Shown: one piece after another, positions 19,381 to 50,489 of the stretch | Numbering within the stretch: the stretch's first letter is position 1 | Layout: every line of letters begins with the position of its first letter | NCBI RefSeq assembly: GCF_021568775.1 | Contig: NZ_JAKGSG010000006.1 | Location: 1-64,000 of the forward strand | DNA length: 64,000 bases | Origin: Antribacter soli | GTDB taxonomy: Bacteria > Actinomycetota > Actinomycetes > Actinomycetales > Cellulomonadaceae | Reading direction: 5' to 3' | Position numbers and translations under genes: made by a program | Notes under the pieces: generated by a model | The model's input: only the letters and a program-made list of their open reading frames with translations | The model's database searches: none | Told to the model about the DNA's origin: nothing

Positions 19381-19512
<132 letters not shown>

Positions 19513-44870: not shown

Positions 44871-46121
44871 ATGAGGAACTACGCAGCGGTACATCCGGTC
44901 ATCCTCGGTGGCGACGCCGGCGCCTACAGCCTCGCTCGCGCCTTTCACGAGGGCTACGGCGTCAGGTCGACCGTCGTGTCCATCCGCCCGACGCCCACCG
45001 TCGCGCACTCCAACATCATCCGGAACGTCGTCGAACCGCGCCTCGACGACCCCGCCGTCATGGTCGAGCTGATCCGCCGGGCCGCCGCGACGGCCCCGGG
45101 CCCGGTCATCGCGCTCACCTGCGTGGACTGGTACGTGCGGGCGCTCGCGGAGCACCGCGCGCGTCTGGAGGACGTGGCGGTCGTCCCCTACCCGCCGGTC
45201 GGTCTGCTCGACAGGGTGATGGACAAGCGGCGGTTCTCCGAGCTCTGCCATGAGATCGGGGTCCCACACCCGCGCACGGAGGTTCGCGACGGCGGGGAGC
45301 CCGTCGGCGACCTTGACCTGCGCTATCCGGTGATCGCCAAGCCCGGTGACAACACGGCGTGGCACCAGGTGTCGTTCCGCGGCAAGGCGAAGGTGCACCT
45401 GGTGCGGGATCGCGCCGAGCTGGCCGCGCTCCTGAAGGCGGCCGGGGAAGCGGGCTACCGACGGCCGATGATCCTCCAGGAGTACGTGCCCGGCGACGAC
45501 TCGCAGATGCGGATCATGACCACGTACTCAGATCTCACGGGCGCGGTGCGCATGGCGTGGGGCGGTCGCGTGCTGCTCGAGGAGCGCACGCCCGGGACGC
45601 TGGGAAACCCGGCGGCGATCCTCACCGGCGGGCTTCCGCAGGTCGAGGCAGACGCCCGCCGGCTCGTGGAGCACCTGGGCTGGACCGGGTTCGCGAACTT
45701 CGACGTGAAGGTGGACCCGCGTACCGGCGTCGGGCACTTCTTCGAGCTGAACCCGCGCACGGGGCGGTCCAACTACTACCTGACCGCGAGCGGGCTGAAC
45801 CCCGCTGCCTACTGGATGGCGGACCATCTCACCGGGCACTGGCCGCACGCCACGGAGCCGCTGGAGGTGCTGTACCGGATCGTCCCGGGCTTCCTCCTGG
45901 ACAGGTACGTGCACGACGAGTCGGTACGCGCCGCCGTGCGCCGCGCCCGCGTCGTGCACCCGCTGAAGTACAGGCGGGACCCGTCGCCGCGCCGCGACGC
46001 CTGGGTACGTCTCGCTGAGCTGAACCAGGTGCGCAAGTTCTCGCAGTACCACCCGCTGCAGGAAGCGGGCGGGGTGCCCGGGCAGCCTGAGGCCCCGTCC
46101 GCGGAGCGTGAGGTTGCCTGA
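44871..46121 (+). CDS. ATP-grasp ligase, probable D-aspartate (or D-glutamate) ligase for the peptidoglycan bridge
   Basis: 416 residues with an ATP-grasp fold. The N-terminal pre-ATP domain starts VHPVILGGDAGAYSLARAFHEGYG. ATP-binding elements: RYPVIAKPGDNTAWH, MILQEYVPGDDSQMRIM and the metal-binding FFELNPRTGRSNYY. The arrangement (ligase overlapping an Asp/Glu racemase gene) mirrors the Enterococcus faecium Asl-fm/Rac-fm pair, which makes D-Asp and joins it to the stem-peptide Lys. Cellulomonadaceae and Promicromonosporaceae use D-Asp or D-Glu bridges, which fits. Substrate identity is inferred, not shown. Confidence 0.82.
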   Translation: MRNYAAVHPVILGGDAGAYSLARAFHEGYGVRSTVVSIRPTPTVAHSNIIRNVVEPRLDDPAVMVELIRRAAATAPGPVIALTCVDWYVRALAEHRARLEDVAVVPYPPVGLLDRVMDKRRFSELCHEIGVPHPRTEVRDGGEPVGDLDLRYPVIAKPGDNTAWHQVSFRGKAKVHLVRDRAELAALLKAAGEAGYRRPMILQEYVPGDDSQMRIMTTYSDLTGAVRMAWGGRVLLEERTPGTLGNPAAILTGGLPQVEADARRLVEHLGWTGFANFDVKVDPRTGVGHFFELNPRTGRSNYYLTASGLNPAAYWMADHLTGHWPHATEPLEVLYRIVPGFLLDRYVHDESVRAAVRRARVVHPLKYRRDPSPRRDAWVRLAELNQVRKFSQYHPLQEAGGVPGQPEAPSAEREVA

Positions 46122-46926
46122 CGTCGGCGCGCCCGGCGCCGGGGCCGCGGAAACGTTCGTCGGCGTGCTGGGCGGGGTCGGGCCGCTCGCGACGGTCCTG
46201 TTCATGGAACGCGTCGTCCGGTTGACCGACGCGGCACGCGACCAGGACCACGTCGACATGGGTCTGCAGCACGCGACCGTCCCGGACCGGACAGCGTTCG
46301 TGCTGGGGCGCTCCGTCGACGATCCGGGGCCTGTGCTTGCTGCCGACGCGCGGCGACTCGCCGGGGCGGGGGCCGCCTTCCTCGTGCTGCCGTGCAACAC
46401 GGCACACGCGTTCGCCGGCGCGATCGCCGGGGCGACATCGATCCCGCTGCTGTCCGCCGTGGACGTGACGGTGTCCGCGGTGCTGTCGAGCGACGCCTGG
46501 ACCGGTTGCCTCAGCGGGTCGCGGCCGGAGGCCGTCGGCCTCCTCGCGACGGAGGGGACGATCGAGTCGGGCGTCTATGTGGACGCCTTCAGCGCGCGCG
46601 GCATCAAGGCCCTGGTTCCGGACGTCGTCGGTCAGGCGACCGTGACGTCCCTGATCTACGACGGCGTGAAGGCGGGCCGTGGCAGTGACCTGACCGCGCT
46701 GGAGGGCGTCGTCGCCAACCTGCGCCTCCGTGGGGCGGGCGCGATCGTACTGGGGTGCACCGAGCTGTCGGTCGCGGCGGCGGCGACCCCTCCGGGCCTC
46801 CTGCCCGACGTCGTGCTCGTGGACGCCCTCGACGAGCTGGCCCGGGCAACGGTGCTGCGCGCGGGACGCAGGCTGCGCGCGGACGGACAGCACTCGCCGA
46901 TGCGGCGACGACCCCCGGGCCCCTGA
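46108..46926 (+). CDS. Aspartate/glutamate racemase family protein
   Basis: 272 residues. The N-terminal VGVLGGVGPLATVLFMERVV is the family signature (GGxGPxAT). The two catalytic cysteines sit in FLVLPCNTAHAFA and IVLGCTELSVA, so the enzyme should be a PLP-independent racemase. The GTG at 46108 overlaps the ligase gene by 14 nt. It probably supplies D-Asp or D-Glu to the ligase. The C-terminus (RADGQHSPMRRRPPGP) is a short disordered tail. Confidence 0.87.
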   Translation: MRLPDVGAPGAGAAETFVGVLGGVGPLATVLFMERVVRLTDAARDQDHVDMGLQHATVPDRTAFVLGRSVDDPGPVLAADARRLAGAGAAFLVLPCNTAHAFAGAIAGATSIPLLSAVDVTVSAVLSSDAWTGCLSGSRPEAVGLLATEGTIESGVYVDAFSARGIKALVPDVVGQATVTSLIYDGVKAGRGSDLTALEGVVANLRLRGAGAIVLGCTELSVAAAATPPGLLPDVVLVDALDELARATVLRAGRRLRADGQHSPMRRRPPGP

Positions 46927-47043
46927 CGATGTTCGAGGACGACGCCACCGTCCATGCAGCGGTGGGACTCCCCACGCACTCCGTCCCTGACGCGGCGACG
47001 ACACCCGGTCTGGGGATGCCGGTCCGACAGTAGGTTGGGACTC

Positions 47044-47508
47044 GTGAGCGAAGTCGAGTGGCTGAACCAGCACGAGCAGCAGGCGTGGGTCACGTTCGTG
47101 AGCGGCACGGTGCTGCTCAACCGGGTGCTCGATCAGCAGCTGCGCGCCGACGCCGGGTTGTCCCACGTGCAGTACGGCATCCTGGCCCGCCTCTCCGATG
47201 CACCCGGTGGGTCGATGCGGATGCTGGCGCTCGCCGAGGCCATGGCGGTCTCCAAGAGCGGCCTGACCTACCAGGTCGTGCAGCTGGAGAAGGAGGGCCT
47301 GGTCAGTCGCGCGGCCTGTACCACCGACGACCGCGGGGTGATCGCTGCCATCACCCCGCTCGGCATGGAGGCGATGCGCCGAGCGGCACCCGGCCACGTC
47401 AACCTGGTGCGTGAGCTGGTCATCGACGCCCTCACCCCCCAGCAGCTGGACCTCCTGGCCGAGTGCCTGGCCCAGATCCAGCGCAAGATCGTCGAGCGCC
47501 AGATGTAG
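47044..47508 (+). CDS. MarR-family transcriptional regulator (copy A)
   Basis: 154 residues, full length for MarR. Winged helix: LSHVQYGILARLSDAPGGSMRMLALAEAMAVSKSGLTYQVVQLEKEGLVSRAACTTDDRGVIAAIT. It resembles the minus-strand MarR at 47554-48060 closely (both contain SKSGLTYQV-QLEK-GLV-R). The GTG at 47044 has no good ribosome-binding site. TAGGTT at 47031-47036 could be a -10 element for a leaderless mRNA. It may control the ligase/racemase pair or the downstream riboflavin-type operon. Confidence 0.88.
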   Translation: MSEVEWLNQHEQQAWVTFVSGTVLLNRVLDQQLRADAGLSHVQYGILARLSDAPGGSMRMLALAEAMAVSKSGLTYQVVQLEKEGLVSRAACTTDDRGVIAAITPLGMEAMRRAAPGHVNLVRELVIDALTPQQLDLLAECLAQIQRKIVERQM

Positions 47509-47553: not shown

Positions 47554-48060
47554 TCATTCACATGGCTCGGCCTCGGTCGCCCGGTCAGGCCGAGAGCATC
47601 CGGCGCCGTCGGCCATGCGGCGGCCGGCTTCCCCGAGCCCGTCGGCGAGCGCCTGCAGCTGGTCGGGCGTGAGCACGTCGATGAGCAGCTCCTTGACCCT
47701 GGTGACATGGCCGGGGGCTGCCCGCTCCAGCAGCGCCATGCCCTCATCGGTGATTCCGGCGAAGACGGCGCGCTCGTCGCTCGTGCACGAGCGCCGACGC
47801 ACGAGCCCCGCCTTCTCCAGCTGCGCGACCTGATAGGTCAGCCCGCTCTTGGAGTTGACCAGGTCACCGGCCAGCTCCGCCATCCGCATCTCCCGGCTCG
47901 GAGCCCCGCTGAGCCGGGCGAGGATCTCGTACTGCAGGCCGGACAGGCCGACCTCCTCCTTGAGCCCGTGGTCCAGCCGGCGGTACAGCAACGCGTGAGC
48001 GTTGGTGAACGCCCGCCATGCCCGCATCTCGTCGTCACTCAGCCATCTCGTGTGACCCAC
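47554..48060 (-). CDS. MarR-family transcriptional regulator (copy B), divergent from the ribA-type operon
   Basis: 168 residues. Winged helix: LSGLQYEILARLSGAPSREMRMAELAGDLVNSKSGLTYQVAQLEKAGLVRRRSCTSDERAVFAGIT. The GTG at 48060 has GGAG at 7-nt spacing; the longer frame to 48099 includes likely operator DNA and is rejected. It is divergent from the GTP cyclohydrolase II gene, and the gap carries two 14-bp near-palindromes. It therefore probably represses both itself and that operon, perhaps in response to a redox-active or phenolic ligand (inference). Confidence 0.9.
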   Translation of the reverse strand: MGHTRWLSDDEMRAWRAFTNAHALLYRRLDHGLKEEVGLSGLQYEILARLSGAPSREMRMAELAGDLVNSKSGLTYQVAQLEKAGLVRRRSCTSDERAVFAGITDEGMALLERAAPGHVTRVKELLIDVLTPDQLQALADGLGEAGRRMADGAGCSRPDRATEAEPCE

Positions 48061-48079
48061 GCCACAGCTCCGTCTGGTT

Positions 48080-48130
48080 GTTCGAATTGGAACGACCATC
48101 GTATCGTAGCGCCGTCGTTCGAATTTTAAC
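48080..48130. promoter_or_regulatory. Two MarR-type operator sites
   Basis: GTTCGAATTGGAAC (48080-48093) and GTTCGAATTTTAAC (48117-48130) share GTTCGAATT-N2-AAC and are near-palindromic. They start 37 bp apart and flank the divergent promoters of MarR copy B and the ribA-type gene. CATCGTATCGTAGC between them may include a -10 element. Confidence 0.65.
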
Positions 48131-48154
48131 TAACGGAAGCGATCTGGAGACGCC

Positions 48155-48796
48155 ATGACCACCAGCACCCCCGCCGCCGCCGTGCGCACCCGGGTCCGCA
48201 TCCCGCTGCGCTTCCCCGACGGCTTCGAGGTGGCGACCGAGGCGATCACCTTCCACGGCCTGGTCGACGGCGCCGAGCACGTCGCCCTCGTCCTCGGGGA
48301 CCCGACGGCCACGCCCACCCCGCTGGTGCGTCTGCACTCCGAGTGCCTCACCGGTGACGTATTCGGCTCCGCCCGCTGCGACTGCGGCCCTCAGCTGCGC
48401 GAGGCCACCGAGCGCATCGCCGCAACCGGCGGCGTCCTGCTCTACCTGCGCCAGGAGGGCCGCGGCATCGGCCTGTACAACAAGCTCGACGCCTACGCCC
48501 TCCAGGACGCGGGACTGGACACCTACGAGGCGAACCTGGCCCTGGGCCTGCCGGAGGACGCCCGCGACTACACCGCCGCCGCCCAGATGCTCAGCGCTCT
48601 CGGCATCGCCGAGCTGGACCTGCTCACCAACAACCCAGACAAGGCGCAGCAGCTGCGGGCGCTCGGCCTGTCGGTGTCCCGGAGCGTCCCCACCGGCGTG
48701 CACACCAACCCCAGCAACCTGCGCTACCTGCACGCCAAGGTCCAGCACACCCACCACACCATCGACCTCGCGCCTGTGGCGTCCCTGGTCGGCTGA
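48155..48796 (+). CDS. ribA: GTP cyclohydrolase II
   Basis: 213 residues, a stand-alone GTP cyclohydrolase II, which opens GTP to 2,5-diamino-6-ribosylamino-pyrimidinone phosphate, formate and pyrophosphate. The three zinc cysteines are in SECLTGDVFGSARCDCGPQL. LLYLRQEGRGIGLYNKLDAYALQD carries the catalytic Arg/Tyr region, and LLTNNPDKAQQL the guanine site. It is not fused to RibB (the usual actinobacterial ribBA arrangement), and the other riboflavin genes are absent nearby. This suggests a dedicated copy for a special pathway or a stress-regulated copy. Confidence 0.93.
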   Translation: MTTSTPAAAVRTRVRIPLRFPDGFEVATEAITFHGLVDGAEHVALVLGDPTATPTPLVRLHSECLTGDVFGSARCDCGPQLREATERIAATGGVLLYLRQEGRGIGLYNKLDAYALQDAGLDTYEANLALGLPEDARDYTAAAQMLSALGIAELDLLTNNPDKAQQLRALGLSVSRSVPTGVHTNPSNLRYLHAKVQHTHHTIDLAPVASLVG

Positions 48797-48825
48797 CCGT
48801 CGGGACGGACAGGCCGGAGATCCTC

Positions 48826-49545
48826 ATGGCTACTCGTCCACGCGTGCTGCTCTCCAGTGCGATGTCGATCGACGGCTACATCGACGACACCGACGAGCAG
48901 CGCCTCATCCTTTCGAACGACGAGGACTGGGAGCGCGTCGACTCGCTGCGCGCCTGGGCCGATGCCATCCTCATCGGCGCCGGGACGCTCCGCTCGGACA
49001 ACCCCCGCCTGCGTGTGCGCTCGGCGCGCCTGCGTGCCGAACGCCGTACCGAGGGGCGGTCGGAGTCTCCTGTCCGAGTCGTGCTGACGGCCACCGGAGA
49101 CATCGACCCCGACGCCGCCTTCTTCGCCGGGGACGGCACCGACCGGCTCGTCTACTCCGACCGCGCGGGCGCGGCCAAGAGCCGCCGCCGTCTCGGTTCG
49201 GCCGCGACCGTCGTCGACGCCGGAAGCCCGCTGGAGCTCGCCGCCGTCCTGGCCGACCTCGAGGCGCGCGGGATCCGGCGGCTCCTCGTCGAGGGCGGCG
49301 GAAGCATCCACACCCAGTTCCTCGCCCAAGGGCTCGTCGACGAGCTGCACCTGGTGACCGCCCCGTTCTTCATCGGCGATGCCAGGGCCCCCCGCTTCGT
49401 CGGCCCCGGCCCCTTCCCCCACGGTCCCGCACGGCCCCTCCGGCTGGCCGAGACCCGTCCCATCGGCGACCTGGTGTACAGCCGCTACCTCGCCGAACCC
49501 GCTCACCGCACAACAACCGACCAGCCACGAAGGACATCGAGATGA
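48826..49545 (+). CDS. RibD C-terminal-domain (dihydrofolate-reductase-like) reductase
   Basis: 239 residues. N-terminal LLSSAMSIDGYIDDTD is the RibD_C signature for substrate and NADPH binding. ADAILIGAGTLRSDNPRL and RRLLVEGGGSIHTQFL are the following conserved blocks. Beside a GTP cyclohydrolase II, it may reduce the ribosylamino-pyrimidine product to the ribitylamino form before deamination, the order used in archaea and fungi, rather than after it as in most bacteria. No deaminase domain is present. Confidence 0.87.
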   Translation: MATRPRVLLSSAMSIDGYIDDTDEQRLILSNDEDWERVDSLRAWADAILIGAGTLRSDNPRLRVRSARLRAERRTEGRSESPVRVVLTATGDIDPDAAFFAGDGTDRLVYSDRAGAAKSRRRLGSAATVVDAGSPLELAAVLADLEARGIRRLLVEGGGSIHTQFLAQGLVDELHLVTAPFFIGDARAPRFVGPGPFPHGPARPLRLAETRPIGDLVYSRYLAEPAHRTTTDQPRRTSR

Positions 49546-50489
49546 AGGCCGTCGTCGTCACCGATTTCGGGACCCACCCGCTGCTCACCGACCTGCCCAT
49601 GCCCAAGCCCGGCCCCGGCGAGCTCCTCGTGCGCATCCACGCCGCCGGCGTGAACCCCTTCGACTGGAAGGTCGCCGACGGCGCCCTCAGGGACGCCGTA
49701 CCGCACGCCTTCCCCCTGGTCATGGGCTCGGACGGGGCGGGCGTGGTCGTGGAGACGGGGCCGGGCGTGACCCGCTTCCGCCCGGGCGACCGTGTCTACG
49801 GGCAGTTCATGAGCCTGCCGCAGGGCCATGGCTCCTACGCGGAGTACACGCTCGCCGACCAGGACGGCAAGATCGCCCGCATCCCCGAGAGCGTGCCCTT
49901 CACCCTCGCCGCCGCACTCCCCACGGCCAGCGTGACCGCCTACCAGGCCGTCGAGGCCGCGCGCCTCGAGGAGGGGCACACCTTCCTGATCAACGGCGCC
50001 AGCGGCGGCGTCGGGCAGTCCGCCATCCAGTTCGCGGCCCGGGCAGGCGCCCGCGTTCTCGCCACCGGAACCCCGGACCTGGCCGACCACCTCCGCGACC
50101 TCGGTGCCCACGCAGTCATCGACTTCACCGTGGCTCCCACTCACGAGCAGGTGGCCGCTGCCCACCCCGAGGGCATCGACGCCGTCCTCGACCTCGTCAC
50201 CCCGACCGGCGGCGACACGAGCCCCATGGCCGGCCTGCTCCGCGCCGGCGCCACCCTGGTCAGCACAAACTTCGCCACCGATCCCGGCGCCCTGGCCGCC
50301 CGCGACATCCTCGGCGTCAACCTCGGCAACAGCCCCACCGCCGAGACGCTGTCCGCGCTCGCCGAGCTCGCCGCCTCCGGAGAGCTGCGCGTCCGCATCG
50401 ACGCCGAGGTCCCGCTCCACGAGGCACCCGCCACCATCGCCAAGGCCCGCACGGGCCACTCCACCGGGAAGACCGTCATCGTCCCTTGA
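49542..50489 (+). CDS. Zinc-less quinone oxidoreductase-like MDR enzyme
   Basis: 315 residues of the medium-chain reductase superfamily, quinone-oxidoreductase type. N-terminal MKAVVVTDFGTHPLLTDLPMP-PGPGELLV and GVNPFDWKVADG; NADPH-binding GASGGVGQSAIQFAARAGARV (GGVG). Structural-zinc cysteines are absent. The ATG at 49542 overlaps the stop of the reductase gene (ATGA). Members reduce quinones or enones. Coupling to a flavin-precursor enzyme pair under MarR control is unusual. Confidence 0.88.
   Translation: MKAVVVTDFGTHPLLTDLPMPKPGPGELLVRIHAAGVNPFDWKVADGALRDAVPHAFPLVMGSDGAGVVVETGPGVTRFRPGDRVYGQFMSLPQGHGSYAEYTLADQDGKIARIPESVPFTLAAALPTASVTAYQAVEAARLEEGHTFLINGASGGVGQSAIQFAARAGARVLATGTPDLADHLRDLGAHAVIDFTVAPTHEQVAAAHPEGIDAVLDLVTPTGGDTSPMAGLLRAGATLVSTNFATDPGALAARDILGVNLGNSPTAETLSALAELAASGELRVRIDAEVPLHEAPATIAKARTGHSTGKTVIVP

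Follow-up and report, generated by a model that had tools for sequence, protein, structure and literature searches.

Why should a bacterium that carries a complete riboflavin operon keep a second GTP cyclohydrolase II gene and a stand-alone reductase gene under a regulator of their own? This question is raised by a block of four genes in a 64,000-nucleotide stretch of the Antribacter soli genome (hereafter, the window), in which a MarR-family regulator gene is divergent from ribA, a RibD_C reductase gene (ribD_C) and a gene for a quinone-oxidoreductase-like enzyme of the MDR superfamily. On balance, we favour the reading that this cassette is an accessory, MarR-repressed upper branch of riboflavin biosynthesis, which may act as an inducible booster of flavin precursor.

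Results

The cassette is distinct from the housekeeping rib operon

A preliminary description of the sequence had listed these four genes, noted that deaminase, RibB, RibE and RibH were missing from the block, and judged it not to be a standard riboflavin operon unless it held the only ribA of the genome. Coordinates, strands and gene content proved correct (Table 1), and a Pfam and NCBIfam scan of the genes confirmed that the block is without deaminase, RibB, RibE and RibH. A complete ribD-ribE-ribBA-ribH operon is present on another contig (C55) of the same genome, directly downstream of a flavin mononucleotide (FMN) riboswitch (Rfam, 97.1 bits, L013:5338-5471), which rules out the cassette as the housekeeping ribA. 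The riboswitch and the full rib gene set were found on C55 only, and Rfam detected no riboswitch at the cassette. The cassette resembles the bacterial housekeeping operon in its RibA first step, and RibD_C shares a Pfam family with the reductase domain of RibD. However, it is without RibB, RibE, RibH and the deaminase, MarR takes the place of the riboswitch, and Ser replaces Lys in the reductase.

The spacing between ribA and ribD_C is 29 bp, and an ATGA overlap (49542-49545) joins the stop codon of ribD_C to the start codon of the oxidoreductase gene; therefore, the three genes likely form a single operon. The divergent gap between marR and ribA spans 94 bp (48061-48154) and has a G+C content of 0.54 versus 0.72, the rest of the cassette being like its surroundings. 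A 40-kb contig (C18) duplicates window positions 19506-51600, cassette included, with one mismatch. Because a poly-G/poly-C junk run (19384-19501) stands exactly where the two copies part, C18 is most likely a redundant contig or a misassembly, and a true second cassette in the genome was rejected.

RibA retains the residues of a GTP cyclohydrolase II

RibA matched PF00925 (198.8 bits, cut-off 23.3, E 5.8e-59) and NF001591 (PRK00393; 269.8 bits, above the cut-off of 148), and scored slightly below the cut-off of TIGR00505 (198.8 versus 205.85 bits). It keeps Cys54/65/67, Glu92, Arg94, Tyr105, Asp126, Arg128, Thr149 and Lys154 (E. coli numbering), so that the zinc cysteines, the catalytic residues and Tyr105 expected of a GTP cyclohydrolase II (GCHII) are all present. 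A FAPy-type (GCH III-like) cyclohydrolase is unsupported since Tyr105 is retained; SCO6655, which reportedly has an altered, FAPy-type activity resting on the loss of a Tyr, differs from the window RibA in this respect. An additional stand-alone GCHII alongside the housekeeping one recalls the GCHII paralogues of S. coelicolor, for which three GCHII isogenes are reported (Spoonamore et al. 2006, as cited in PMC3509567).

The reductase carries a RIB7-type substrate-choice residue

The reductase was recognized by PF01872 (E 3.5e-43). According to the textbook rule, bacteria deaminate before reducing. A mutational study of yeast RIB7 showed that Thr79, Asp83, Glu180 and Gly182 are necessary, and that one residue decides whether the RibA product 2,5-diamino-6-ribosylamino-4(3H)-pyrimidinone 5'-phosphate (DAROPP) or AROPP is taken: Thr35 in yeast, for which T35K was tested, Asn in archaea and Lys in bacteria (Lys152 of EcRibD; PMC3631187). 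In an alignment ungapped around the key positions, Thr54, Asp58, Glu156, Gly157 and Gly158 of the window RibD_C match the catalytic and NADPH residues Thr79, Asp83, Glu180 and Gly181-182 of ScRIB7. The switch position is occupied by Ser10, versus Lys in the genome's own RibD and Asn in the archaeal MmRED. Ser is general in the subfamily (45 of 46 scored rows, the other having Glu), some loci being counted twice among these rows and about 36 distinct sequences entering the RibD_C tree. The window reductase thus shares both the catalytic Thr/Asp/Glu/Gly-Gly set and a non-Lys specificity residue with fungal RIB7 and archaeal RED, and by its residues is RIB7-like. Because the catalytic residues are intact and Ser stands at the switch position, it is predicted to take the RibA product directly, with no prior deamination. 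A bifunctional eubacterial RibD/RibG was rejected, since the protein has no deaminase domain and has Ser instead of Lys, and TIGR00326 scored 87.2 bits, below its cut-off of 156.35.

Many relatives of the reductase are paired with a Rib2-type deaminase

The reductase was sought in 59 relatives and in GTDB contigs. In the Streptomyces-like genomes of one family (f21), a deaminase is fused to its C-terminus, the reverse of the domain order of RibD; at loci L122-L126, a RibD with reversed domains was seen (reductase, then Rib2-like deaminase), about 375-430 aa long as called. A separate deaminase gene lies directly behind the reductase gene in a genus-mate (G001), in G014, G036, G166 and G206, and in several Catellatospora, Kitasatospora and Streptomyces contigs, with a stop/start overlap between the two genes in most.

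For a profile built from ten of the relatives' deaminases, the top match in the whole set of solved structures was fungal Rib2 (7drz; E 1.6e-18), with bacterial RibD just behind. The Rib2 determinants are Arg105 and Glu136 (PMC8256712). Correspondingly, a PCX9C motif, an Arg at C+3 and the Glu of an [RS]EP motif were present in all 16 cognate deaminases checked, in agreement with the alignment to 7drz, whereas in the housekeeping RibD the deaminase domain shows PCX8C, His and DPN instead and does not match Rib2. Given these deaminase determinants and the RIB7-type switch residue of the reductase, the reductase/deaminase family as a whole probably represents a route in the fungal/archaeal order, that is, reduction followed by deamination. 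The likeness to fungal RIB7/Rib2 and archaeal RED extends to the Arg, Glu and PCX9C features in the deaminases of these Actinomycetota relatives. In contrast to the fungal and archaeal systems, the set here is an accessory one, MarR-controlled and kept alongside a classical RibD operon in Actinomycetota; its reductase and deaminase are fused in Streptomyces-like genomes, and the window cassette is without the deaminase.

MarR and its predicted operators

The regulator matched PF01047 (37.6 bits versus a cut-off of 24.6), the MarR winged-helix domain. Its listed open reading frame begins at ATG 48099, and a GGAG Shine-Dalgarno sequence precedes a GTG at 48060, which most likely is the true start; the 94-bp gap thus holds both predicted operators. 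In operator 1, 20 of 24 positions are self-complementary, a score that 10 out of 2000 dinucleotide-shuffled versions of the gap equalled. Its core, GTTCGAATTNNAAC, is repeated 37 bp away in operator 2, and exact copies of it are confined to 48080 and 48117 in the whole genome (5 Mb, the redundant contig counted once). The TTCRAA half-site of operator 1 is spaced as in the predicted operators of the Streptomyces-like genomes, whose gaps hold two palindromes each (for example, TGCTTCAAATYTGAAGCA) with TTC(R)AA half-sites at the same spacing. Related TTGAA/TTCAA palindromes were found at several other RibA loci, and no such palindromes upstream of reductase/deaminase loci having neither MarR nor RibA.

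The nearest solved structures are 3zpl (the S. coelicolor MarR protein SCO3205, E 4e-31) and 3zmd. SCO3205 binds two pseudo-palindromes within a divergent gap (PMC3737563), and paired TT/AA pseudo-palindromic operators in such a gap, predicted in the present case, are common to both systems, a likeness of architecture. The divergent target of SCO3205 is a LigB-like dioxygenase gene (PMC3737563), whereas here it is ribA-ribD_C; in one relative (L117), a gene for a LigB ring-cleavage dioxygenase adjoins MarR and RibA. The control by the divergent MarR put forward in the preliminary description is very probable.

Recurrence of the core and its settings

The search for RibA covered 396 genomes each from the order and the phylum, and we inspected the gene surroundings of about 40 loci carrying it. 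In the order, 65 genomes out of 396 gave matches at E<=1e-55, many of these being weaker matches; in the phylum draw, 11 out of 396 did so at 1e-60, own genome included. The core of MarR, RibA and RibD_C recurs in five Streptomyces-like genomes of family f21, all of one genus, in a rearranged order (reductase <- -> MarR -> RibA), and the RibAs of these genomes, 75-77% identical to that of the window, are its nearest in the tree. In Streptomyces, the member of this MarR-RibA set is probably SCO2687. About 640 genome scans for the oxidoreductase, and the RibA neighbourhoods that we inspected, yielded no second instance of the complete four-gene block. Hence, the conservation on which the preliminary description had made its proposal depend holds in part: the four-gene block is private in our sample, and the three-gene core is not.

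The oxidoreductase is a member of the MDR superfamily by PF08240/PF13602; its best NCBIfam match, TIGR02824 (PIG3), reached 134.2 bits, below the cut-off of 296.8, and the protein was not assigned to PIG3. No close homologue was found among 248 genomes of the order, and six were found among 395 genomes of the class, none adjoining RibA, so that this partner is private to the present genome in the sample.

These distributions bear on the possibility that the cassette is a horizontally acquired, redundant second ribA/ribD_C pair, weakly regulated, which adds flavin capacity without a role in stress. Its nearest RibA in another family, the patchy occurrence of RibA, the reductase/deaminase contig of the genus-mate, which is without RibA, and the private oxidoreductase are consistent with such an origin, and paralogous rib enzymes are present in many bacteria (review, PMC13028884). 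However, a dedicated divergent MarR with private paired predicted operators, a related operator architecture in other families, and conserved RIB7/Rib2-type residues unlike those of the housekeeping enzyme argue against it, and we regard mere redundancy as unlikely.

Members of the same RibA subfamily occur in several other settings. They stand with a full RibD and MarR at L102, L103, L063 and L066, with a nitroreductase, RibD_C and a deaminase at L106, and beside the above-mentioned dioxygenase at L117. At L104:7235-9082, RibA is fused to an acyl-CoA-dehydrogenase-type (group-D flavin monooxygenase-like) domain by Pfam, in a protein of about 620 aa, and the same fusion is present in L107 and L108 by length and sequence, which makes three genomes, one family in all. 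We know of no description of such a fusion, which would unite flavin supply with flavin use.

RibA genes also lie in gene clusters of a different kind. At L054, L114, L115, L118-L121, L128, L129 and L132-L135, a RibA of this same subfamily and RibD_C stand with a PTPS homologue, a glycosyltransferase, a methyltransferase and an LPG-synthase-like membrane protein, an arrangement that recurs in actinomycetes and is possibly of the SCO6650-SCO6655 type. In Streptomyces and Agrobacterium plasmids (L099, L100), RibA adjoins WD40/PQQ beta-propeller and SUMF1 proteins, which resembles the toxoflavin type, and in another Streptomyces plasmid (L098) it lies within a cluster encoding lantibiotic dehydratase, AMP-binding, acyl carrier, ATP-grasp and condensation-domain proteins. 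Salmonella enterica plasmid pRSE21 (L101, 23.6-30.0 kb) carries genes for a RibD-like deaminase, RibA, a methyltransferase, a riboflavin synthase subunit and MFS proteins, a set that probably makes a flavin-like or pteridine-like specialised metabolite.

Such settings, above all the PTPS/glycosyltransferase/methyltransferase cluster with the same RibD_C family, the toxoflavin-like RibA-WD40-SUMF1 sets and the condensation-domain cluster, invite the idea that the window cassette supplies precursor for a specialised metabolite made elsewhere in the genome, such as an azapteridine, a deazaflavin/F420 or similar. We consider this very improbable. None of the partners in question is present around the cassette: it shares an additional stand-alone RibA with toxoflavin-type clusters and differs in having no WD40, SUMF1 or methyltransferase partner nearby, and the PTPS-cluster type is likewise rejected, the window RibA grouping with the MarR type in the tree. 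F420 precursor supply is excluded because the genome is without FO synthase, with no CofH_C match in it and matches in the control genomes.

Features and neighbouring genes

The features of the locus are collected in Table 1. The second MarR paralogue, just outside the block, is 52% identical to the cassette MarR and transcribed convergently to it. It belongs to a co-directional unit adjoining the cassette (44871-47508), together with an Asp/Glu racemase family protein and a 416-aa protein which has no Pfam match and looks ATP-grasp-like by eye.

Table 1 Features of the MarR-RibA-RibD_C locus (window positions)
Feature	Position	Strand	Basis or remark
MarR-family regulator, 168 aa	47554..48060	-	PF01047; GTG start at 48060
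Operator 1 (predicted), 24-bp imperfect palindrome TGGTTGTTCGAATTGGAACGACCA	48075..48098	.	upstream of both marR and ribA
Operator 2 (predicted), second motif copy GTTCGAATTTTAAC	48117..48130	.	just upstream of the ribA Shine-Dalgarno sequence
Stand-alone GTP cyclohydrolase II (RibA), 213 aa	48155..48796	+	PF00925, NF001591 (PRK00393)
RibD_C reductase, 239 aa, RIB7-type by substrate-choice residue Ser10	48826..49545	+	PF01872
MDR-superfamily quinone-oxidoreductase-like enzyme, 315 aa	49542..50489	+	PF08240/PF13602
Second MarR paralogue	47044..47508	+	PF01047; membership of the system uncertain

Discussion

Based on the sequence, we propose the following mechanism. At rest, a MarR dimer would occupy the two operators between marR and ribA and repress both transcripts, and a ligand, probably a reactive aromatic or quinone compound, would release it. 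RibA would then turn GTP into DAROPP, out of reach of the FMN riboswitch that limits the housekeeping rib operon. Like its fungal and archaeal counterparts, the RIB7-type RibD_C would accept DAROPP itself as substrate and give DARIPP. In many relatives that bear the reductase, the Rib2-type deaminase would complete the step to ARIPP; in the window genome, the product would enter the pathway through another deaminase or stay as DARIPP. The oxidoreductase may be a lineage-specific addition, probably one that detoxifies the inducer. The net effect would be flavin precursor raised on demand to help the cell handle aromatic compounds by flavin-dependent or redox reactions. Of the two functions offered in the preliminary description, a flavin precursor boost and a pyrimidine-derived metabolite, the former fits best, since in relatives RibA is joined to a flavin-monooxygenase-like domain or neighbours a nitroreductase or else an aromatic dioxygenase. 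Derepression of the SigH stress regulon in C. glutamicum is accompanied by a rise of rib genes (PMC3489674).

Several observations weigh against this reading. No Rib2-type deaminase was found in the window or in the genome as assembled, two weak matches elsewhere in the genome lacking the signature and being either unrelated or deaminase-like genes of another kind; therefore, flux to flavin is not guaranteed. The tie of the oxidoreductase to the branch is the arrangement of one genome, since this partner is not conserved. In addition, the RibA tree joins the window sequence to the f21 genomes without strong support, the predicted operator 2 is only a half-good palindrome, and the best NCBIfam match of RibD_C, the archaeal reductase model TIGR01508, reached 130.5 bits, below its cut-off of 186.45, so that the protein is not filed as a member of that family.

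The missing deaminase also leaves room for a reduced diaminopyrimidine (DAROPP/DARIPP), instead of flavin, as the end product. The reductase would then turn the labile ribosyl form into a stable ribityl form serving as a redox-active scavenger of reactive nitrogen and oxygen species, and the deaminase, which relatives of the reductase often have, would be absent by design. In yeast, the GTP cyclohydrolase II product DARP gives tolerance to nitrosative stress independently of riboflavin, and its triaminopyrimidinone moiety scavenges nitric oxide derivatives (PMC7138843); a MarR regulator and a quinone-oxidoreductase-like partner would suit a stress operon. However, the nearest relatives with the same MarR-RibA core have the deaminase, so that the ancestral product was probably ARIPP, a partner gene may also disappear through simple decay, and we found no bacterial precedent. 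We hold scavenging as the end use to be doubtful. A more far-reaching version, in which actinomycetes hold an inducible second route in the fungal/archaeal order beside RibD, and the present genome dropped the deaminase so that its MarR-switched operon makes protective DARIPP with the help of a quinone reductase, appears to us quite unlikely. An accessory booster of flavin precursor remains the reading that we prefer.

In the open full-text literature, we found no description of a MarR-controlled ribA, or of a bacterial RIB7/Rib2-type branch under MarR control, which does not prove that there is none. To call the cassette an undescribed small system, as the preliminary description did, is too strong, as every protein family in it is known; what is new is the RIB7/Rib2-type substrate-choice residues and the private predicted operators.

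If these residues mean the same here as in yeast and Aspergillus, the rule of deamination before reduction would have a recurrent bacterial exception, one maintained next to the usual pathway and under a dedicated regulator in place of the FMN riboswitch. Such a branch would explain the extra ribA and stand-alone RibD_C genes of no known use in many actinomycetes, and would bear on flavin overproduction strains and on the supply of flavin in bacteria under chemical stress.

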